Positions 2,233 through 16,068 of a stretch of 21,859 bases of DNA are shown one piece after another. Both the position numbers and the translations under genes were made by a program. This stretch comes from a virus, in IMG/VR virus record IMGVR_UViG_3300010373_000459, positions 1 to 21,859 of that record. One strand, given 5' to 3'. The notes under the pieces are model-generated. The model did no database searches, was not told the origin of the DNA, and worked only from the letters and a program-made list of their open reading frames with translations. Numbering within the stretch: position 1 is the stretch's first letter; each line of letters begins with the position of its first letter.

Positions 2233-2245
2233 AAGAATACCTTGA
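2129..2245 (+). CDS. Overlapping short coiled-coil-like ORF, 38 aa (or frameshifted tail of the 2026 gene)
   Basis: This frame reads DESYQESLERAEQMASKLKR, a good charged helix with higher third-position GC than the competing frame over the same bases. The TTG at 2129 is a possible start. The frame is open back to a GTG at 2054 that itself overlaps the 1962 gene's stop (GTGA). The stop overlaps the TTG start of the AAA+ ATPase by four bases (TTGA), the same coupled arrangement seen throughout the operon. This supports ribosomes arriving at the ATPase gene in this frame. Confidence 0.45.
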   Translation: MTTGSAKPGAKDESYQESLERAEQMASKLKRLEPRRIP

Positions 2246-3582
2246 TTCAGCATTTGTCAGAAGCAATTCATCAGCAGTTGTCCAACCCGTTCATGTCTGG
2301 CGGTTTGCTGCTCATGTTTACGGGAAGCATAATCGCTTTCGCGCGTAATCTCCCGATGCGTGCATGGGGCCGCATCCGCGAGCAGTTCATTGTGGAAGTT
2401 TCCGTCCAGAACACAGACCCGCTGTTTGACTGGATATCGCTTTGGTTGAACGACCAGCCGTACAGCAAGAAGACCAGACGGCTCTCTGCAACTACGATTG
2501 CCAATTACGAAGGTGGCTACGGGAATAGTGAATGCCAGGAGACTCCGATTGGATACAACGATGAGCGGCCGCGTCCTAAGTTGATCCTCACGCCAGCCAA
2601 AGGCATGCACCTGCTGCGGTATCGTGGAACGCTGCTGTGGCTTTCCCGGGGAGCCGGAGACTCGCCCACCGACAATAGCGGCGGAAGCAAAGGTATTAGC
2701 ACCAATCGTTTCCAATTAGAGACATGGAACCTTCGCATTTTTGGACGCTCTCAATCCCTCTTGCGCGATCTGCTCAACGAAGTCATTGACCGCGCCGTAA
2801 GCTTTCAGGAAAAGAAGATCAGCGCCTTTGTTGGAATCTACAGCAACTGGCGCAGGCTGAGAACCTTCACGCCCCGCAAACTTGACAGTGTGATTGTTCC
2901 GGAAGCCGACCTGAGTAAGATTACCAAGACCCTCGAAGAGTTCATCCAGCAGGAATCCTGGTACACGGATATGGGCATTCCCTACCACCTTGGGATGCTC
3001 TTCCACGGAACCGCCGGAAGCGGCAAAACGTCTCTCATCGGCGCTTTGGCTGGCCATTTCAAGATGAATCTCTACCTGCTGAATCTGGCCAGCGAGGACA
3101 TTGACGACGAGCGTTTCGCCTCATTGATAAGCGAGATTCCACCCCGCAGCTTCATGGTGCTTGAAGACATCGACGGAGCGCTCGGAGCGCATAAGCGGAG
3201 CGCCGATAAAGAAGGCCACAAAGGTCTGACGCTTACGGGTTTACTCAACTCTCTGGATGGCTTCATGGCTAAGGATGGTTCGATTGTCTTTATGACGACG
3301 AATCATCGGGAACTGCTCGACCCGGCATTGCTGCGGCCGGGGCGGGTGGATGTGGAGATCGAATTCAAGCCCGCTACCAGCGACCAGCGGGAACGGCTGT
3401 TCAAGAGGTTCTTCCCAGAGGCCAGCGAGTTGCTGGCGATTGGTTTCGGCGCGCGTGAGGATCTGCGGACAATGGCCGAGGCCCAGCAGGTGCTGTTGGC
3501 GCACAAGGACGATCCACGGTCAGCAGCTTTACTGAGCAGCCGCGAAGAGTACGACCGGGTTGAATTGGGTGGAAAAGCGTAA
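2242..3582 (+). CDS. Membrane-anchored AAA+ ATPase of the BCS1 type
   Basis: The 446-residue protein has a hydrophobic N-terminal anchor (about residues 17-36), a middle region resembling the BCS1-specific N-domain, and a C-terminal AAA+ module. Walker A is HGTAGSGKTS (K262, T263) and Walker B is MVLEDID (306-311, acidic pair E308-D309). A sensor-1-like TTNH and the second-region motif LLRPGRVD (arginines at 365 and 368) follow. The spacing, the phrase LLNSLDG and the RPGRVDVEIEF region are typical of mitochondrial BCS1, a heptameric translocase that moves a folded iron-sulfur protein through the inner membrane. Here it lies directly upstream of the endolysin with no gap. A TTG start overlapping the previous stop (TTGA) is assumed. 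Its phage substrate is unknown; membrane remodelling, translocation of a folded protein or virion assembly are possible. Confidence 0.85.
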   Translation: MIQHLSEAIHQQLSNPFMSGGLLLMFTGSIIAFARNLPMRAWGRIREQFIVEVSVQNTDPLFDWISLWLNDQPYSKKTRRLSATTIANYEGGYGNSECQETPIGYNDERPRPKLILTPAKGMHLLRYRGTLLWLSRGAGDSPTDNSGGSKGISTNRFQLETWNLRIFGRSQSLLRDLLNEVIDRAVSFQEKKISAFVGIYSNWRRLRTFTPRKLDSVIVPEADLSKITKTLEEFIQQESWYTDMGIPYHLGMLFHGTAGSGKTSLIGALAGHFKMNLYLLNLASEDIDDERFASLISEIPPRSFMVLEDIDGALGAHKRSADKEGHKGLTLTGLLNSLDGFMAKDGSIVFMTTNHRELLDPALLRPGRVDVEIEFKPATSDQRERLFKRFFPEASELLAIGFGAREDLRTMAEAQQVLLAHKDDPRSAALLSSREEYDRVELGGKA

Positions 3583-4110
3583 ATGAACAGTGCATCACAA
3601 GCACGCCTCGCCCAGGTGTATCCGCGTCTCGCTGACAAGATCGAGAAGCTGTCCACGCGCTGCATTCAGGAAGGTTTCTATATCACCGTTCCGGAAGGGC
3701 TGAGAGATTGGGACTACCAGCACGGGCTCTGGCTCAAAGGCCGCAACCCAGACGGAACCTTCATTGACTCGGTGCACCACAAAGGCGTGGTCACGAATGC
3801 AGACGCCGGGCATAGCTGGCACAACTTCGGGCTTGCCGTTGACTGCGATCCGGAAGACAAGAACGGAGTCATTGACTGGAATGCGGACCATCCACAGTGG
3901 AAGACCATGGAGCGGATCGGTGTCTCATTGGGTCTGACCAGTGGCGCGAACTGGGTGCGCCTCGTGGATGCGCCGCACTTCCAGATCACAGGACGATTCC
4001 CGGTAGGTGCACCGGACGACGAAGTGCGAGAGCTGTATAAGGCCGGAGGGCTCAAGGCTGTTTGGGATGCAGTCGAAGCGAGCCTGCCGCCGGAGATCAC
4101 TCAGCAGTGA
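3583..4110 (+). CDS. M15-family peptidase endolysin (L-Ala-D-Glu / D,D-peptidase type)
   Basis: This 175-residue protein is a single catalytic domain that cuts peptidoglycan cross-bridge or stem peptides. The zinc site is clear: SWHNFGLAVD carries the SxHxxGxAxD signature (H80, D87), and APHFQ supplies the third ligand (H132). The length and lack of a cell-wall-binding module are typical of endolysins from phages of Gram-negative hosts, such as the T5 enzyme. There is no signal peptide, so release probably depends on a holin. The ATG directly follows the ATPase stop (TAAATG). The stop overlaps the next gene (GTGA). The choice between endopeptidase and carboxypeptidase activity cannot be settled from sequence alone. 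Confidence 0.88.
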   Translation: MNSASQARLAQVYPRLADKIEKLSTRCIQEGFYITVPEGLRDWDYQHGLWLKGRNPDGTFIDSVHHKGVVTNADAGHSWHNFGLAVDCDPEDKNGVIDWNADHPQWKTMERIGVSLGLTSGANWVRLVDAPHFQITGRFPVGAPDDEVRELYKAGGLKAVWDAVEASLPPEITQQ

Positions 4111-4454
4111 GCGCTTCCGTTGACGTTCTAACCTGTCCGCACTGCCATCAGCCGGTACAGGAGTCAGTAAAGATCGGAAACCTGGAAGTCTTTCTTAGTG
4201 GAGACGTGTTCCGCGATTCGCAGCCAATCAAGCTGACGCGGCGAGAGTTTCAGGTTCTCTGGTTCATGGCCAAGAAAGCAGGCCAGAGTTTAACCCGTAC
4301 CCAGATTGTAGAAGCAGTCTGGGGCTATGAGTTTCAAGGGCTGACCAACATTGTGGATGTGTACGTGAGATACCTGCGCGAGAAGCTAGGTCATCCCTGG
4401 CTGATTCAGACGGTGCGCGGAGTTGGCTACACGCTGGCGGAGAACAAGCAATGA
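4107..4454 (+). CDS. Free-standing OmpR/PhoB-type winged-helix DNA-binding protein
   Basis: The 115-residue product has an N-terminal CPHC (C10, C13) that may be half of a zinc site, then a complete OmpR/PhoB-type effector domain (about 24-112). Its hallmarks are LTRREFQVLWFM (43-54), the recognition-helix region TNIVDVYVRYLREKLG (80-95) and the wing TVRGVGYTL (102-110). The phosphoacceptor receiver domain that normally precedes this module is absent, so control must differ from a classical two-component regulator. The GTG at 4107 overlaps the endolysin stop; a longer in-frame start at 4062 would lie inside the endolysin gene. A role as a phage transcription regulator is inferred; its targets are not visible. 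Confidence 0.85.
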   Translation: MSASVDVLTCPHCHQPVQESVKIGNLEVFLSGDVFRDSQPIKLTRREFQVLWFMAKKAGQSLTRTQIVEAVWGYEFQGLTNIVDVYVRYLREKLGHPWLIQTVRGVGYTLAENKQ

Positions 4455-6684: not shown

Positions 6685-7031
6685 GTAACCAGCCGGAAGG
6701 CGTAAAGAAAACGTTGCGTGGTGGCCATTCGCCCGAAATAGGCAAGGACACGCGCATCAAGAAGGGCGAAGTCCGAAACCCTACAGGCAAGAACGGGCAG
6801 GACTTCATCACCAGGGCGTTCAGGGAAGTATTCGGCGATGTGGAGGCGACCGCAAAGGCCGTAAAGCAGATTATGAAGGGCAAAAGCGCGATTGCCAAAG
6901 TAATGCTTCTGGAGAAGGCGGCCGAAAGGCTCGAGGGAAAAGTGGCGCAGCCGGTCAAGGTTTCCGGTGAGTTGAATATCAGTTTAGCCGATGAGATCCG
7001 GAAGGCGCGGCAAAGGGCAGAAGAAGAGTGA
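6681..7031 (+). CDS. Candidate terminase small subunit (DUF5681-like)
   Basis: Starting at the GTG at 6681, which overlaps the upstream stop (GTGA), the product has 116 residues. The N-terminal part has TRIKKGEVRNPTGKN, the basic Gly/Asn/Pro signature of DUF5681 proteins, which often lie directly before large terminases. Helical segments and a charged C-terminus follow. In this position a DNA-recognition subunit that brings genomic DNA to the large terminase is the natural assignment, though a dedicated helix-turn-helix is not obvious. A longer in-frame GTG at 6663 would lie within the upstream gene. It overlaps the large subunit by GTGA. Confidence 0.7.
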   Translation: MSNQPEGVKKTLRGGHSPEIGKDTRIKKGEVRNPTGKNGQDFITRAFREVFGDVEATAKAVKQIMKGKSAIAKVMLLEKAAERLEGKVAQPVKVSGELNISLADEIRKARQRAEEE

Positions 7032-8566
7032 TTTGCGATACGCCAGATCAGGCGTCTGTCCAGCGAGAGATGATTGCTGACCTGATGCGCTACCGCTATG
7101 AGCCACTGAAGGCCATCAAGTATGGATTCAAGTGGGGCGAAGGCGAACTGGCCAACGAGACCGGGCCTCGGGCATGGCAGCGGAGGCAATTAGAGGAGCT
7201 CGGCGCCCATCTTCGTAATCCGGAAACCAGGTATAAGCCTTTTCGCAAGGCCGACTCGAGCGGCCACGGCATTGGTAAATCAGCCTTCATTAGCTGGATC
7301 ATCTGGTGGGGCCTTAGCACGTTTGAGGACTGCAAGGTCATTGTCATGGCTGGCACTGGAGACCAGCTCAAGACAAAAACGCAGCCCGAGGTAGCGAAGT
7401 GGTTCCGCATGGCCATCAATGCGGCGTGGTTTGAGGTAAACGTCACCAGCATCAAGGTGTTAGAGCCTGGGCATGAGACCAACTGGCGCTGCGACTTCAA
7501 TACATGGAGCGAGGAAAACCCGCAAGCTTCTGCCGGCGCGCACAATAAAGACAAGCGGCTGATTATCATCTACGACGAAGCCAGCGGAATCCATAATGAA
7601 ATCTGGAAAACTCAACAGGGCGCGCTGACCGATGACAACACCGAGATTATCTGGATAGCGTGCAGCCAATGCACGCGGAAGGACGGCGCTTTCTACGATG
7701 CCGTATTCGGTGTGGAGCGGCACCGCTGGAACCCGGAGGTCATAGATTCTCGCGAAGTTGAAGGCATCAACCTCGAGGAAATCAATCAGACCGTTGAGTT
7801 GTATGGCGAGGAATCAGACCACGTAAGAGTGCGTTACCGCGGCCTCTATCCGGTTGTAGGCGAAGGCAGTTTCATTCATCAGGAACTCATCAACCAAGCG
7901 CAGGAGCGCACAGGGGCAGCGCTATTTGATGAACCATTGATTGCCGGGGTTGATTTTGCCTGGGGTGGAGCAGATGAGAACGTTATCCGCTTCCGCAAAG
8001 GATTTGACGCTAAAACAATCAAGCCAATACGGATACGCGGTGAATTGACCCGCGATCCCGCAGTAATGGCCGGCCGAATCGTGGACGTTCTGAACACGAC
8101 CTATAACGGCCAAAAGGTTGACATGCTGTTTGCTGACGGATCAGGCGTTGGCGGGAATGCCGGCGCAGTAATGGCGCGAGTAAGGATGCTGGGCTTCACG
8201 AATGTTATGGAGGTCAACTTCGGGCACGACGCCTTGGACAATCAGCATTACGTTCTGCGCCGCGATGAGATGTGGGGCAAGATGAAAGACTGGCTGCGCG
8301 ATGGAGGAGCAATCGACAGAGATCCGGGGCTGGCGGCCGATCTTTCCAAGCCGATCTTGATGGGCGATAAAAAGCAGCGCATCAAGCTGGAACCCAAAGA
8401 CGTAATGAAAAGGCGTCTCTCAAAAATGGGCATTGATTCAGCCAGCCCGGACGATGCTGATGCGCTGGCGCTTACGTTTGCAATGCCGGTCTCTCTACCC
8501 CAAAAACCAAAAGCCCACGTTTCAGGATGGGCAGCGCCGTCAGGTGACGGTGGATGGATGGCATAG
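7028..8566 (+). CDS. terL: Terminase large subunit (packaging ATPase and nuclease)
   Basis: The 512-residue protein has an N-terminal packaging ATPase and a C-terminal RNase H-like nuclease. The Walker A variant is SSGHGIGKSA (77-86, K84), typical of this terminase branch. Walker B is LIIIYDE (178-184, D183-E184). The nuclease begins with GVDFAW (D309), continues with FADGSGVGG, and closes near the SPDDADALALTF motif with conserved Asp residues. It pumps DNA into the procapsid and cuts concatemers. The GTG start is four-base coupled to the small-subunit candidate. Length is close to the P22 enzyme (about 500 residues), although the sequence is not obviously of the P22 gp2 branch. Confidence 0.93.
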   Translation: MICDTPDQASVQREMIADLMRYRYEPLKAIKYGFKWGEGELANETGPRAWQRRQLEELGAHLRNPETRYKPFRKADSSGHGIGKSAFISWIIWWGLSTFEDCKVIVMAGTGDQLKTKTQPEVAKWFRMAINAAWFEVNVTSIKVLEPGHETNWRCDFNTWSEENPQASAGAHNKDKRLIIIYDEASGIHNEIWKTQQGALTDDNTEIIWIACSQCTRKDGAFYDAVFGVERHRWNPEVIDSREVEGINLEEINQTVELYGEESDHVRVRYRGLYPVVGEGSFIHQELINQAQERTGAALFDEPLIAGVDFAWGGADENVIRFRKGFDAKTIKPIRIRGELTRDPAVMAGRIVDVLNTTYNGQKVDMLFADGSGVGGNAGAVMARVRMLGFTNVMEVNFGHDALDNQHYVLRRDEMWGKMKDWLRDGGAIDRDPGLAADLSKPILMGDKKQRIKLEPKDVMKRRLSKMGIDSASPDDADALALTFAMPVSLPQKPKAHVSGWAAPSGDGGWMA

Positions 8567-9471: not shown

Positions 9472-9644
9472 ACGTGTCGGGATTGATTATTCCCGGTAAT
9501 TGGTATGAACCCATCAAGGCGGAGCCGGGCATGACGTTTCGCGTCATAGCTGGGGTTACTAAAACGCAATACAGCGGCGACTGGTCGATTGAGCCTGAGG
9601 CGGTCATTGCCGTCATTACGAGAGTTCATGAAAACCCAAGCTGA
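9468..9644 (+). CDS. Small hypothetical protein, 58 aa
   Basis: The ATG overlaps the preceding stop (ATGA) and has AGTGAGGAAG just upstream. The product looks beta-rich (GLIIPGNWYEPIKAEPG, then MTFRVIAGV and AVIAVITRV), like a small barrel, with no Cys and no signal peptide. The last 17 bases overlap the GroES-like gene's start at 9628. Its function is unknown; a virion or assembly protein is possible. Confidence 0.55.
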   Translation: MNVSGLIIPGNWYEPIKAEPGMTFRVIAGVTKTQYSGDWSIEPEAVIAVITRVHENPS

Positions 9645-10323
9645 AATCAAAGCTACCAGCCGCAAGCTGGACACATGGAAAAGCCCTCACTTCGGCGACG
9701 GTGGCTGGCATACCACTCCTGGCACTCAGGAGCATGTAACCGAGTGGGAGCCGCTCGGCGACCGCCTGCTGGTGCGCATTCTTCCGGACAAGTGGACGTC
9801 AGTAATCATCCGCGTCAATTCAGATCAGCAGGAAGCATACCGGCGCGGAGTGGTGATGAAGCTCGGCACCGGCTATCGCTTGCCAGATGACAAATCCGAG
9901 CGCCAGCCCTTCACGGTGCAAGTCGGCGATGAGGTAATCATCGGCCAATGGCACGACTGGCAGAGCGCGGATGCTGGATTTGGAGAAAATGTGGTCCTTT
10001 GCCGCGAGCCAGATGTCCGAGCGTTCTTCAGAAAGGGAGAGATGATCCAGTTACTTTACGATCGCGTTCTTTTAGAGCGCATTGAGCACGATGAAACCAT
10101 ATCCGGGATCATCATTCCCGATGAGGCCAAAGAAAAACCGCGCGAGTGCCGCGTGGTTGCCGTGGGCCCGGGCCACTTCGCCGGCGGAAGATTTGTTCCG
10201 GTGGACGTGAAGGCTGGCGACAAGGTTCTGATTGGAGAGTATGCGGGTTCCGAGTTCCAGCACGAAGGCCGGGAATATCTGGTAGTCAGGGAAGAAGAGA
10301 TCCAGGCGCGCATACCCGCATGA
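9628..10323 (+). CDS. Tandem GroES-like co-chaperonin (two Cpn10 domains)
   Basis: With the ATG at 9628 the product has 231 residues: a short polar N-terminus, then two Cpn10 folds. Domain 1 (about 41-134) begins EPLGDRLLVRILP and contains VQVGDEVIIGQW, but its mobile-loop region is degenerate. Domain 2 (about 140-229) is nearer to classical GroES: LLYDRVLLERIE, mobile loop ETISGIIIPDEAKEKP, VVAVGPG, VKAGDKVLIGEYAG and YLVVREEEI. GroES forms a heptameric lid on GroEL; phage versions such as T4 gp31 help fold coat protein. A fused pair resembles the chloroplast Cpn20 layout. No GroEL gene is present, so the host GroEL is the likely partner. The longer frame from 9589 overlaps the upstream gene more and adds nothing domain-like. 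Confidence 0.88.
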   Translation: MKTQAEIKATSRKLDTWKSPHFGDGGWHTTPGTQEHVTEWEPLGDRLLVRILPDKWTSVIIRVNSDQQEAYRRGVVMKLGTGYRLPDDKSERQPFTVQVGDEVIIGQWHDWQSADAGFGENVVLCREPDVRAFFRKGEMIQLLYDRVLLERIEHDETISGIIIPDEAKEKPRECRVVAVGPGHFAGGRFVPVDVKAGDKVLIGEYAGSEFQHEGREYLVVREEEIQARIPA

Positions 10324-10544
10324 TAAGCAGTGAATCTCAGGCCAAAAGAAAAGCCACCTACCCGGCAGATCACCAGCCGGGGATGAAAGTGCCTGAAGGC
10401 GGCTCAAACTGTTCCAAGTGCGAATACCTCAAAGATCGCTCTAAAGGCTTGTGCGGCAATAAGTATTTTGTGAAGTGGAACGGATCAGACAAGATTCCCG
10501 GCGACATCAATTCTTACTGCTCAGACTGGTTTGAATCGGCGTAA
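10320..10544 (+). CDS. Small four-cysteine phage protein, 74 aa
   Basis: The start ATG overlaps the chaperonin stop (ATGA). The product has four Cys (C31, C34, C45, C67) in the pattern CxxC-x10-C-x21-C, with KYFVKWNGSDKIPGDINSYC between them. It resembles small phage proteins found just before portal genes. The Cys could hold zinc or an iron-sulfur cluster (the spacing is loosely like small high-potential iron-sulfur proteins), but nothing in the sequence decides. It ends directly at the portal start (TAAATG). Confidence 0.65.
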   Translation: MISSESQAKRKATYPADHQPGMKVPEGGSNCSKCEYLKDRSKGLCGNKYFVKWNGSDKIPGDINSYCSDWFESA

Positions 10545-12725
10545 ATGCCTCACATCCTCTCCTCTAAATCTAAAAAAACAAACAAGAAGCGCGATGAAGA
10601 CGAACCGCTTATTGCTCAGTCCTTCAAACGCTTCCTGCTGACCGCAGAAGCAGAGTCGGACAAGCGTAAAGCGAGCCTAGAAGACCTGAAATTCTCTATC
10701 GGCACTGGCCAATGGGATGAACAGGTCAAGGCCAACCGCGAGATTGAAGGCAAACCATGCCTTACGCTCAACCGCGCACCGGCATTCCTGCGGCAATACA
10801 CGGGAGAGGAGCGCCAGCACCGCCCGGCAATGATTGTCAACCCGGTAGGCAGTGGTGCGGACCAGCAAACGGCGTCCATTCACCAGGGCGTTCTGCGCCA
10901 CATCGAGAACGTCAGCGATGCCGAGAACGTTTATGACGATTCCTACGACATGATGATGCGCATTGGATGGTGCCCGTGGCGCGTTACCACTGAATACATC
11001 GACGAAATGTCATTCGACCAGGAGCCGCGCATTCGCTCCGGCCAGAACCCTTTTGCGTTTTACCTCTCCCCGGTGCGCGGAATCGACGGCAACGACCCAC
11101 TCTGGGCGCACATCGTTGAAGACTTGAGTAAAGAGCAGTATGAAGCACAGTTTGGCCAGACTGAACTGGTAAAGCTCCGCTTCCCTTCGCAGATGGGCAA
11201 TGCGCCGGCGGATTGGGTCAACAAAGAGGGCGTGAGAATCGCCGAATACTGGTGGATTGATCTGGTGCGCGATACCTTGTGCCTGCTTGAGGATGGAACA
11301 ACATGCCTCAAGCAGGATTTGGCGGGCCGCACAGTCGTTCAAGAGCGTGAGACCGTGCTGCGCAAAGTGAATTGCGTCAAGCATGACGCCATTCAGGTGC
11401 TCAAGCGCTATGAGTATCTCGGCAAATACATTCCGATCCCGGAAGTTTCTGGGGTAAAGATCAACGTAAACGGAAAGATTCACTGTTCTGGCATGGTCCG
11501 GGACTACCGCGATGCCCAAAGGATCTACGACTTCATGGTTACGCGCGCCGTGGAGCAGGTGGACATGACCACCAAGGACCCGTTGTGGGTCCCAAAGGAA
11601 AACTCGCAATGGGATGAAGACTACCGGCAGATGAACCGGAAGAACTTCAGCCATATGTACTTTGCTGCCTATGACGAGCAGGGCCGGCAGCTTCCCGTGC
11701 CGCAACGGGCAGGGCGCGATGCCCAGATCCAAGCAATGCAGGGACTGATCCAGCAGGCCGACTATGACATGAAGGCCATTGTGGGAATCTATGGCCAGAC
11801 GTTGGGCGATCCTGTTAACCCACAAGAGTCTGGAATCGCCATTCTGAGTCGTCAGGAGCAGGCGGATACTGGCGCCCTCACATGGCATGAGCAGTTGAAT
11901 CGCGCAATCAAGTACCAAGGCAAGATACTGCTGGATTTGTGGCCCAAGCTGATATCGCCGGCACGCCTGCAGCGCATTATCAAGCTCGACGATTCAGTGT
12001 CGCAGGTGGTGGTTTACAACGGGCAAGAGAACCAGGAAGCGGCCTCGAAACTCCTGAACCCACAGCAGAATGTTACCGAGGCCTATGACGTAAGCGTGGG
12101 CAGCTATGACGTGGCCTTGTCGGCTGGACCCATGTACAAATCAGCCCGCCAGGAAGCATTTAAAGCCCTCACCGCACTGATTACAGCCGAACCGCAGCTA
12201 ATCACCATGGTTGGCGATATTTGGGCTAAAAATGCCGATTTTGCGCAGTCTGATGTCCTCTCTGCGCGATTCAAAAAGATGCTTCCGCCGCAACTGCAGG
12301 ACGATGACGGAGGTAAGGACAAAGACGCTGCCCTCGCACAAAAGGATTCTCAGCTTCAGGCGCTCAGTGCGCAGCATGACCAGATGTTGCAGGAATTGAA
12401 CCGCGCGGCCGACACGATCAGAACCAAGCGCCTCGATATTGAGAGTAAAGAGCGCATGGCGCTTCTGAATGCTCAAGTCCAACTCACTCTGCAAGCCATG
12501 AAGGACCACAGCGCAGGGGCGCAGGCGCATTTAGAAGAGACCCTGCGCGCCATTTCAACACAACTGCAGGCCATGCACGCGGGAATGACGGTAGATCAAG
12601 ATGCTGGCGAAGCGCCGCCAACGCCGGAATTGCCTGGATCCGTTCAACCAAAAGTTCAGCCCGTAACCCCGGCTCCGCCTACTCCACCAAGGCCACAGCC
12701 CATCAATGGAGGTATTCCGGAATGA
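10545..12725 (+). CDS. P22-type portal protein
   Basis: The 726-residue length nearly equals that of the P22 portal (about 725). The N-terminal half has features of that family: the early CLTLNRAPAFLRQYTGEER stretch, RPAMIVNPVG, HQGVLRHIENVSDAENVYD and GWCPWRVTTEYIDE. The last roughly 140 residues are a long Gln/Leu/Lys coiled coil (from about 590) and a Pro-rich end, equivalent to the helical barrel region of P22-like portals. Twelve copies are expected at one capsid vertex, as the DNA channel and terminase dock. The ATG immediately follows the previous stop. The stop overlaps the next gene (ATGA). Confidence 0.92.
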   Translation: MPHILSSKSKKTNKKRDEDEPLIAQSFKRFLLTAEAESDKRKASLEDLKFSIGTGQWDEQVKANREIEGKPCLTLNRAPAFLRQYTGEERQHRPAMIVNPVGSGADQQTASIHQGVLRHIENVSDAENVYDDSYDMMMRIGWCPWRVTTEYIDEMSFDQEPRIRSGQNPFAFYLSPVRGIDGNDPLWAHIVEDLSKEQYEAQFGQTELVKLRFPSQMGNAPADWVNKEGVRIAEYWWIDLVRDTLCLLEDGTTCLKQDLAGRTVVQERETVLRKVNCVKHDAIQVLKRYEYLGKYIPIPEVSGVKINVNGKIHCSGMVRDYRDAQRIYDFMVTRAVEQVDMTTKDPLWVPKENSQWDEDYRQMNRKNFSHMYFAAYDEQGRQLPVPQRAGRDAQIQAMQGLIQQADYDMKAIVGIYGQTLGDPVNPQESGIAILSRQEQADTGALTWHEQLNRAIKYQGKILLDLWPKLISPARLQRIIKLDDSVSQVVVYNGQENQEAASKLLNPQQNVTEAYDVSVGSYDVALSAGPMYKSARQEAFKALTALITAEPQLITMVGDIWAKNADFAQSDVLSARFKKMLPPQLQDDDGGKDKDAALAQKDSQLQALSAQHDQMLQELNRAADTIRTKRLDIESKERMALLNAQVQLTLQAMKDHSAGAQAHLEETLRAISTQLQAMHAGMTVDQDAGEAPPTPELPGSVQPKVQPVTPAPPTPPRPQPINGGIPE

Positions 12726-13903: not shown

Positions 13904-14791
13904 ATGCCATCAGGAATCATTCTGAGCAGTGGAAGTCAGGGAGCAACCAAAGAGGACGTAGAAGCCGTTCTGCGCAAAAACGGGTATGAGGTTGAAGTTC
14001 CCGAACCGACAGAAGAAGAGAAAGCGGCGGCAGCGGCAAAGGGCGCCGAGGAAAAAGAAAAAGAAGGCGAGAAGCCAGATGGCGAAGAAGAAACCGAGGC
14101 CCAGCATCTCAGCCGCCGACAAAAAGCCGTAAAGAAGGCCACCGAGCAGCTTCGCAAAGATTTAGCCGCGGCCAATCAGCGCATTGCCGATCTGGAAAAA
14201 GGCGGCAAAAAAAAGGAAGAAGAAGCCGAGCCGGAGTCCCAGGGCGCACCCAAGCGCGAGGACTTTGAGAGTGATGAAGAATTCCAGGAAGCGCTGTTCG
14301 ATTACCGCTACCAGGAGCGCAGCAAGAAGGAAAAACAATTAGCCGCCGAAAAAGAAGAAAACGACCGGCTGCAAAAGAATTGGAGCAGTTACAAAGAGAA
14401 AGTCTCTGCTTTCAAGGAAGATCACGACGATTGGGATGATGTGATGAGCTCCAATATCCCGATCCAGGAAAGCGTTTATCTCGCCGTGCATGAACTGGAG
14501 AATGGCCCAGAGGTGGCTTACTACCTCGGGAAGAACCCGGATTATGCCAAGAAACTACATGCAATGTCTCCGCTGTCCGCAATCATGGAAATTGGAAACC
14601 TCTCCGAGAGGTTGAAGCCCAAGACTACAAAACGGGAAGTAGTCGAGGAGCGCGGACCAGCAATCAGGAAAATTCCGGAACCCGTACAGCCGGTTTCTAC
14701 CGCCGCAACCGCGTCAACTTCGACGAGCAGGGATGCGGCTATCGCGCGCAATTTCAAGGCCTTCAAGGCCGCTCAGCGCCGACAAAAATAG
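13904..14791 (+). CDS. Head scaffolding protein
   Basis: The 295-residue product is very rich in Glu and Lys, with long coiled-coil-like helices (for example about 69-105 and 145-175), Ala-rich stretches and a basic C-terminal end (NFKAFKAAQRRQK). The gene lies between portal and coat, exactly where P22 has its scaffold (303 residues), which also binds coat through a basic C-terminal helix. It should guide coat assembly and then leave the procapsid. There is no protease domain. The call rests on position, length and composition rather than on detailed similarity. Confidence 0.8.
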   Translation: MPSGIILSSGSQGATKEDVEAVLRKNGYEVEVPEPTEEEKAAAAAKGAEEKEKEGEKPDGEEETEAQHLSRRQKAVKKATEQLRKDLAAANQRIADLEKGGKKKEEEAEPESQGAPKREDFESDEEFQEALFDYRYQERSKKEKQLAAEKEENDRLQKNWSSYKEKVSAFKEDHDDWDDVMSSNIPIQESVYLAVHELENGPEVAYYLGKNPDYAKKLHAMSPLSAIMEIGNLSERLKPKTTKREVVEERGPAIRKIPEPVQPVSTAATASTSTSRDAAIARNFKAFKAAQRRQK

Positions 14792-14799
14792 GAGCTTAA

Positions 14800-16068
14800 A
14801 TGCCAAATGAAATTCTCACACGCCAGGAGATCAGCTTTAAGAATCTCATGGTGCTCGAAAACTCAATCTCCTTCACGAAAAAGGTAGTGCGCCGCTACGA
14901 TGACAAGTTCGGCAAAGCCGGTGCCAAAATCGGCTATGTGCTGAATATCCGTAAGCCCGCGCGCTCCGTATCCACCGCCGGTCAAGGCATCCAGCTTCAG
15001 GACTACATTGAGCGGTCTGTTCCGCTGGTCCTGAACAAGCAGTACCAGCAGGCCTGCGCTTTCACTTCATCCGATCTCTCGCTGTCACTTGATGACTTCA
15101 CGAACCGAGTGACCAAACCCAAGATCGTGCAGCTCGCCAATGACATTGATTTTGACGGCTTGCAGCAGTTCGCCAATGTGCCAGCGGAAGTCGGCACTCC
15201 TGGCACCGTCCCCAACTCTGCCGACACCTACCTCAATGCTCTTCAGGTTCTCGCTGACGAAGGCATCCCGGTTGATCCGGAAGAAGGCCTCTCGGTGCAT
15301 ATCTCCCCGAGAATGCAGCGCTCAATTTTCCCGGCATTGCAAGGCTTGGTAGCGACCGGATCTGGAACCTCAAGCTTCGCGTTCCTGCGCAACATGGCAA
15401 AGGGTGAAGGCGGAGAGGAAGACTACTTCAAGGGCCTTGTGGCCGCCGGCCTGGGGTTTGACTGGTTTATGACCCAGAACGCTCCGGTATTCACCACGGG
15501 CACGCAGGGCGGTACTCCTGTCGTGAACGGAGCCGGGCAGACCGGATCAAGCATTGCCACTTCTGGCTGGTCAAACAACACTCAGGTGCTCAACCAGGGT
15601 GACGTGATCTTCTTTGCAGGCGTTCACAGGATCAATCCTCTGACCCGCCAGTCAACCGGCGATCTGCGCCCCTTTGTCGTAACTGCTAACGTGGTTTCAA
15701 ACGGATCAGGGCAGGCGAACATTCCAATCGCTTGCGTGGATGGTGATGGAATCACTCTGGCTGGTCCTTACCAGACAGTTGACGTATCGCCAGCTAATAA
15801 CGCGTCGGTAACTGTGCAGGGCGCCAGCGCCGTCCAAAGCGCTCGCGGCGTTGCCTTCCATCCTGAAGCCTTCGCCTTCGGCTGCGCCGACCTCGAAATG
15901 TACGACAACCAGCACATGATGGAGATGGCGGCCGATAAAGAGCTTGGTCTGGCCATCCGCATGTGGGCTCAGCCCGACATCAATACCGACCGCCTGCTGA
16001 TGCGCCTTGATGTGCTCGGCGGATGGTTGACCATGTATCCACAGGCTGCGGTGCGAATCGCCAGCTAA
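14800..16068 (+). CDS. Major capsid protein, P22 coat-like (HK97 fold)
   Basis: The 422-residue length is close to the P22 coat (430). Family features include the early GKAGAKIGYVLNIRKPAR segment, the SLDDFTNRVTKPKIVQLAND stretch, and a middle inserted domain. Later come GDVIFFAGVHRINPLTRQST and DLRPFVVTANVV, then AFHPEAFAFGCADLEM and a C-terminal LDVLGGWLTMYPQAAVRI. It builds the icosahedral shell on the scaffold. A Shine-Dalgarno-like GGAG lies at 14791-14794. It is probably a main client of the GroES-like protein. Confidence 0.92.
   Translation: MPNEILTRQEISFKNLMVLENSISFTKKVVRRYDDKFGKAGAKIGYVLNIRKPARSVSTAGQGIQLQDYIERSVPLVLNKQYQQACAFTSSDLSLSLDDFTNRVTKPKIVQLANDIDFDGLQQFANVPAEVGTPGTVPNSADTYLNALQVLADEGIPVDPEEGLSVHISPRMQRSIFPALQGLVATGSGTSSFAFLRNMAKGEGGEEDYFKGLVAAGLGFDWFMTQNAPVFTTGTQGGTPVVNGAGQTGSSIATSGWSNNTQVLNQGDVIFFAGVHRINPLTRQSTGDLRPFVVTANVVSNGSGQANIPIACVDGDGITLAGPYQTVDVSPANNASVTVQGASAVQSARGVAFHPEAFAFGCADLEMYDNQHMMEMAADKELGLAIRMWAQPDINTDRLLMRLDVLGGWLTMYPQAAVRIAS

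Follow-up and report, generated by a model that had tools for sequence, protein, structure and literature searches.

Tandem co-chaperonins, in which two Cpn10 domains are joined head to tail in one chain, are represented by Cpn20 and Cpn23 of chloroplasts and apicoplasts (PDB 7ekq; PMC5780408, PMC3542282); apart from the protein described here, the arrangement is known, in this analysis, from chloroplast-type organelles only. How a seven-fold chaperonin can be served by an even number of lid domains, and what number of mobile loops this requires, are questions that have been studied with chloroplast Cpn20 and with engineered concatemers. GroEL works with hetero-oligomers that combine single-domain and double-domain chains, or with rings of six or eight domains (PMC5780408), and tandem Cpn20 substitutes for GroES in E. 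coli (PMC3542282). In apicomplexan Cpn20, the loop, roof and barrel have been reported in both domains (PMC3542282). Phages, in turn, are known to encode lids of their own for host GroEL. The Cpn10-fold protein gp31 of T4, which aids the folding of the coat protein, is a single-domain protein that forms a homoheptamer; it is ~14% identical to GroES, is devoid of the roof loops and has longer mobile loops (PMC6318259). Closer to the present locus are the portal-linked Cpn10 proteins of P22-like podoviruses, single-domain chains of 76-186 aa encoded between the terminase and the portal, and the bacterial GroES proteins themselves (PF00166).

Here we describe a 231-aa phage protein that can be compared with each of these systems. 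It belongs to a bacterial virus from soil and is encoded in a window that comprises a whole metagenomic contig, a 21.9-kb IMG/VR virus record (21,859 nucleotides), the one contig from which the tandem is known; all the features of the window given below lie on the plus strand. Like Cpn20 and Cpn23, the protein is a single chain with a head-to-tail pair of Cpn10 domains and presents the same mismatch between an even number of domains and seven GroEL sites. Unlike these organellar proteins, it joins two different Cpn10 lineages, and the linker is shorter, with 16 residues between equivalent Asp residues compared to 23 in CPN23. Moreover, P. falciparum Cpn20 has loops in both domains, whereas the loop of domain 1 of the phage protein is degenerate, and because of this degeneration, we do not classify the tandem as a Cpn20. 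The protein is encoded in a phage record, and its domains group with a phage family and with GroES, respectively, in a tree that included no plastid sequence. The preliminary description of this DNA had proposed that the viral tandem was independent of chloroplast Cpn20, and these groupings, 100/100 for the phage family of domain 1 and with bacterial and phage GroES for domain 2, agree with an independent origin.

A tandem Cpn10 gene in a podovirus head operon

The tandem gene (9628-10323) extends from an ATG at 9628 to a stop codon at 10321-10323, with no internal stops. The two Cpn10 segments, originally recognized from the sequence alone, were recovered with Pfam, and the strand, coordinates and length first given for the gene are correct. 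Scored alone against Cpn10 (PF00166), for which the curated cut-off is 21.1 bits, residues 1-138 reach 33.9 bits (E 3e-8; match spanning residues 41-132) and the remaining 93 residues, at the C-terminus, 90.9 bits (E 5e-26; residues 140-228). PHROG 3188 (co-chaperonin GroES) matches each half of the protein, and a nucleotide-level search of the record recovers adjacent Cpn10 matches at 9748-10023 and 10045-10311 in a single open frame. The 231-aa chain thus carries both Cpn10 domains within a single open frame. Domain 1 (residues 41-135; 9748-10032) is preceded by an N-terminal extension (residues 1-38; 9628-9741) that is common to single-domain phage relatives and in which I7 and W17 are nearly invariant (alignments A4 and A5). 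Domain 2 (residues 139-231; 10042-10320) is a canonical GroES that starts at an internal ATG, so that its first residue, in the position where GroES proteins usually start, is a methionine.

Structure prediction for the two halves, which the preliminary description had named as a check, finds the Cpn10 fold in the first half as well as in the second. With AlphaFold2 models made from an alignment of relatives for each half, the top 16 entries in structural alignment were all Cpn10, GroES or gp31 in both cases; they include 1p3h (Z 10.2, 85 residues, 2.6 A) in the list for the first half and 1wnr (Z 14.4) in that for the second. T4 gp31 matches the first half with Z 6.4 and the second with Z 8.8, a purely structural match, given that gp31 was not found among the sequence-search matches of the tandem gene. 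The relative placement of the two domains is of low confidence in both AlphaFold2 models (pTM 0.52 and 0.49) because there is no alignment spanning both domains: MAFFT stacks the domain 1 rows and the GroES rows onto one half. A Foldseek whole-chain match to 7ekq was rejected as evidence of orientation (rmsd 17.5 A).

The window carries a P22-like podovirus head operon, in the order terminase, small ORFs, tandem, Cys-rich gene, portal, scaffold, coat and connector. The large terminase subunit (7028-8566; phrog_2, E 3.1e-29) lies upstream of the tandem; downstream are the P22-like portal protein of 726 aa (10545-12725; phrog_156, E 1.4e-90), the head scaffolding protein (13904-14791; phrog_8865, E 6.7e-35) and the major head protein of 422 aa (14800-16068; phrog_283), which corroborates the initial assignment of portal and coat genes as neighbors of the tandem. 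The major head protein is 75-90% conserved in 44 related contigs. The small Cys-rich protein (10320-10544), the ATG of which overlaps the stop codon of the tandem gene (ATGA), yielded 0 matches in Pfam and 0 in PHROG; it is conserved, and several relatives (L003, L004 and L013) likewise encode it between Cpn10 and portal.

Two Cpn10 lineages in one chain

When the full-length 231-aa protein was used to search IMG/VR directly, no relative was found, and relatives were instead gathered with portal, terminase, coat and domain 1 profiles. Portal identity was 54-71% in 15 of the 16 portal relatives, and wherever the contig reached far enough, a single Cpn10-like protein of ~145-185 aa, with the same N-terminal extension, was encoded upstream of the portal. 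A gene of the domain 1 type occupies this position in 27 of the 29 distinct contigs that extend 700 bases or more upstream of the portal, both exceptions being distant relatives. All 25 relatives in alignment A5, along with domain 1 of the window, match Pfam Cpn10. In the 50-row tree, domain 1 falls inside a phage-only Cpn10 family with 100/100 support, and it shares with this family the N-terminal extension, a conserved C-terminal motif and the site upstream of the portal, as well as the invariant residues G80, G82, G100, G106, D110, D129 and R131. Judging from these sequence comparisons, domain 1 with its extension is the co-chaperonin of this phage group itself, the direct orthologue of the single-domain genes of the soil group, which end a few to ~40 residues past the DVR motif. 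The window carries the only tandem among the domain 1-family contigs examined: the fetched loci contain no second Cpn10 ORF, a PF00166 search of 16 whole records gave at most one match in each, and the second GroES domain is absent from the domain 1-family records examined. An apparent double match in one contig (L112, which is the same contig as L308) proved to be a single domain that carries a Cys-rich insertion near the loop; in this domain 1 relative (L112:4776-5330), ~27 residues (CGIPDCPCNDGDTCNYL...) are inserted immediately ahead of the mobile loop. Matches of domain 1 to GTDB contigs were rejected as genes of this family, as they scored best as ordinary GroES genes.

The pattern extends beyond these close relatives, with co-chaperonin genes conserved beside the portal in a large podovirus group and the GroEL gene absent from the records searched. 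Among podoviruses related through TerL (mostly ~36% identity), 31 of 56 records have a shorter Cpn10-like gene between terminase and portal, and the four short proteins from this wider set that were tested in Pfam all score above the Cpn10 cut-off. In these 31 loci (L217-L288; for example, L234:7882-8127), the gene lies directly upstream of the portal, the products tested are 76-89 aa long, and the dome segment is missing in most. The portal-linked phage co-chaperonin is widespread and partly known, as in phage DSL-LC05, where a protein of close similarity already bears the annotation co-chaperonin GroES (WJZ48174.1), and the short family appears to be under-annotated. That more distant podoviruses, too, retain a Cpn10-like gene at this site, between terminase and portal, supports a role in head assembly. 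In Rhodoferax phage P26218 and EBPR podovirus 1, the hypothetical protein encoded upstream of the portal is not identified as Cpn10 by Pfam.

Domain 2 tells a different story. In the same tree, it lies outside the phage family of domain 1, among bacterial and phage GroES. Among the matches listed, the best bacterial GroES proteins, especially those of Acidobacteriota, are 55-61% identical to domain 2, with the mobile loop intact, the highest value being 61% in Acidobacteriota (297 genomes) compared to 54% in Pseudomonadota (120 genomes), in a comparison of two phyla only with unequal samples. Unlike these bacterial counterparts, domain 2 follows another Cpn10 domain in the same chain and is encoded in a phage head operon that lacks groEL. 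A recent internal duplication that would make the two domains sisters is rejected (p-AU 0.016), whereas placement of domain 2 beside the phage family is not (p-AU 0.225), and because of the latter result, a bacterial host is a probable rather than a proven donor. Thus, the protein initially described as a double GroES does contain two Cpn10 domains, but these are not copies of one another: domain 1 belongs to a phage-only family (100/100) and domain 2 is canonical GroES, so that the tandem is, on the evidence of the tree, a fusion of two distinct Cpn10 lineages rather than a doubled GroES.

The arrangement of the locus offers a glimpse of how such a fusion could have come about. Domain 2 occupies precisely the interval from domain 1 to the next gene, and of the seven junction codons (AFFRKGE; 10021-10041), four (AGA, AAG, GGA and GAG, read from the sequence) are one substitution away from a stop. 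In the simplest history, a host-type groES would have been inserted after the domain 1 gene and ahead of the Cys-rich gene, and the separating stop would then have been lost. Other phage tandems, for which the preliminary description had suggested a search, were found neither in the literature nor in the related records, with their at most one Cpn10 each. Among the matches listed from 417 bacterial genomes, no adjacent same-frame pair of Cpn10 genes was found, a weak result, as domain 2 alone served as the query. What is new is the tandem; single GroES genes beside phage portal genes have already been annotated.

Mobile loops, a possible internal start and ring architecture

The mobile loop of domain 2 (residues 154-171, HDETISGIIIPDEAKEKP; 10087-10140) is intact and aligns with the GroES rows, with the standard sequence GIIIPDEAKEKP (GIIIPD core). 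In every domain 1 relative, a proline follows the hydrophobic residues of the loop (IVAPD, IIRPE and similar), and even a truncated copy, L007, has it (IVAPD). The domain 1 loop of the window (residues 54-71, DKWTSVIIRVNSDQQEAY; 9787-9840) is degenerate: it reads IIRVN, with the family proline lost, and is three residues shorter than those of the relatives, leaving a shortened hydrophobic stretch, SVIIRV. The early statement that only domain 2 keeps a recognizable mobile loop is thus right as to the intact loop of domain 2 and the lost proline of domain 1, but too strong in that domain 1 retains SVIIRV. A second loop has been gained and the first one damaged in the same phage, and the sequences suggest that domain 2 took over GroEL binding from domain 1. 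In this single case, the loss of the domain 1 loop may be drift rather than specialization because the domain 1 branches are long across the whole subclade. The division of labor proposed at the outset, between a GroEL-binding domain and a phage-specific one, remains a reasonable reading of one intact loop and one lost proline.

The account that we favor, and consider moderately probable as a whole, is that of a phage lid fused to a captured GroES, with domain 2 docking and domain 1 phage-specific; in it, GroEL binding, client, ring stoichiometry, internal initiation and donor host are inferred, the function from family membership and position. In all the relatives sampled, such a lid would be single-domain and Cpn10-like, with the N-terminal extension, its gene lying immediately ahead of the portal. 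A GroES gene, probably from an Acidobacteriota host, would have been inserted directly behind the lid gene, and the two would have merged into one frame. The product would be a lid that the phage itself supplies to the GroEL chamber of its host and in which domain 2 would dock GroEL via its intact mobile loop and domain 1, its loop degenerated, would retain a phage-specific wall or dome. A virus would here be combining its own lid with a cellular-type lid. No Cpn60 gene was found in the window or in seven related records (eight records searched), and therefore, host GroEL would serve as the partner. The precedent of gp31 in coat folding (PMC6318259) suggests, by analogy, that the lid helps fold a head protein. 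The likeliest client would be the 422-residue coat protein because, by its length (~45 kDa), it should fit the GroEL chamber, which the 726-aa portal should not.

The junction itself, however, might be more than a linker. The internal ATG at 10042 (M139) is preceded by a Shine-Dalgarno-like sequence, AGAAAGGGAGAG, at 10030-10041, with a predicted anti-SD duplex of -7.7 kcal/mol, the second strongest among 80 in-frame internal ATGs, compared to -3.3 kcal/mol at the gene's own start; the spacing between this sequence and the ATG is short. A single-domain product from this ATG is plausible. One could go further and take the separate GroES made from ATG 10042, produced alongside the full tandem, as the main lid, with domain 1 reduced to a fading passenger. 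The location of the ATG at the native GroES start, the pairing that beats that of the gene's own start and the missing loop proline of domain 1 all speak for this scenario, but the short spacing does not, and the open frame, invariant residues and clear Cpn10 score of domain 1 suggest that selection on it persists; on balance, we consider it rather unlikely.

Around a GroES ring, the C-terminus of each subunit adjoins the N-terminus of its neighbor. Under the favored account of a fused lid, domains 1 and 2 are probably ring neighbors, as in Cpn20, because the domain ends are ~2 residues apart, the linker extending only that far past the canonical C-terminus of domain 1, and such ends meet between neighboring subunits in GroES rings; two different Cpn10 domains of one chain would then stand side by side in the ring. 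The preliminary description held that seven loops cannot simply be matched by a whole number of two-domain chains. The mismatch is real, but the puzzle has already been solved by mixed or six- and eight-domain rings (PMC5780408). In the phage, three tandem chains might be completed at the seventh site by one single domain, either host GroES or domain 2 initiated at ATG 10042; alternatively, a six- or eight-domain ring could form. A fully specified version, in which dead-loop phage domains and captured host GroES domains alternate, about half of the positions grip GroEL, and the seventh place is taken by internally initiated domain 2 or by host GroES, is doubtful in its entirety. A phage chain in which one loop is intact and the other degenerate nevertheless provides a natural test of the loop-number question.

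Domain 1 could also lie outside the ring altogether, with seven chains forming the ring through domain 2 and domain 1 serving as an outer appendage, for example, an adaptor for a client or for the capsid. This would accommodate the degenerate loop, and seven copies of domain 2 would fit GroEL without any symmetry problem; yet, the ~2 residues between the C-terminus of domain 1 and the N-terminus of domain 2 favor side-by-side packing, and the intact loop of the single-domain relatives implies that domain 1 was probably once a lid itself, which makes this arrangement distinctly improbable. Finally, it is very unlikely that the single frame is an accident, with two overlapping genes joined by a sequencing or assembly error or by a frameshift or stop loss in a single virus: frame +1 does carry the end of domain 1 into the TGA of an ATGA at 10042-10045 that overlaps the ATG of domain 2 (SSERER followed by the stop), the next junction (10320) has precisely this ATGA layout, domain 1 is a single gene in all relatives, and a one-base shift inside 21 bases would suffice to split the gene into two overlapping ones, but there is no sign of error, both domains share one frame without a stop, an ATGA is expected by chance after about 1/4 of all ATGs, and the indel would have to be confined to just those 21 bases.

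Other genes of the window

Several genes in the first part of the window merit mention in their own right. An AAA protein with a TTG start (2242-3582) contains a BCS1 N-terminal domain (E 1.5e-29), the AAA domain and a BCS1 lid; this relative of the mitochondrial chaperone/translocase Bcs1 seems unusual for a small podovirus. A phage NusG/RfaH-like transcription factor is encoded at 981-1547 (PF02357, E 1e-13). At 4062-4454, there is a lone OmpR-type DNA-binding domain without a receiver domain (PF00486, E 6e-26), the gene for which adjoins that of an M15/VanY peptidase (3583-4110), a probable endolysin.
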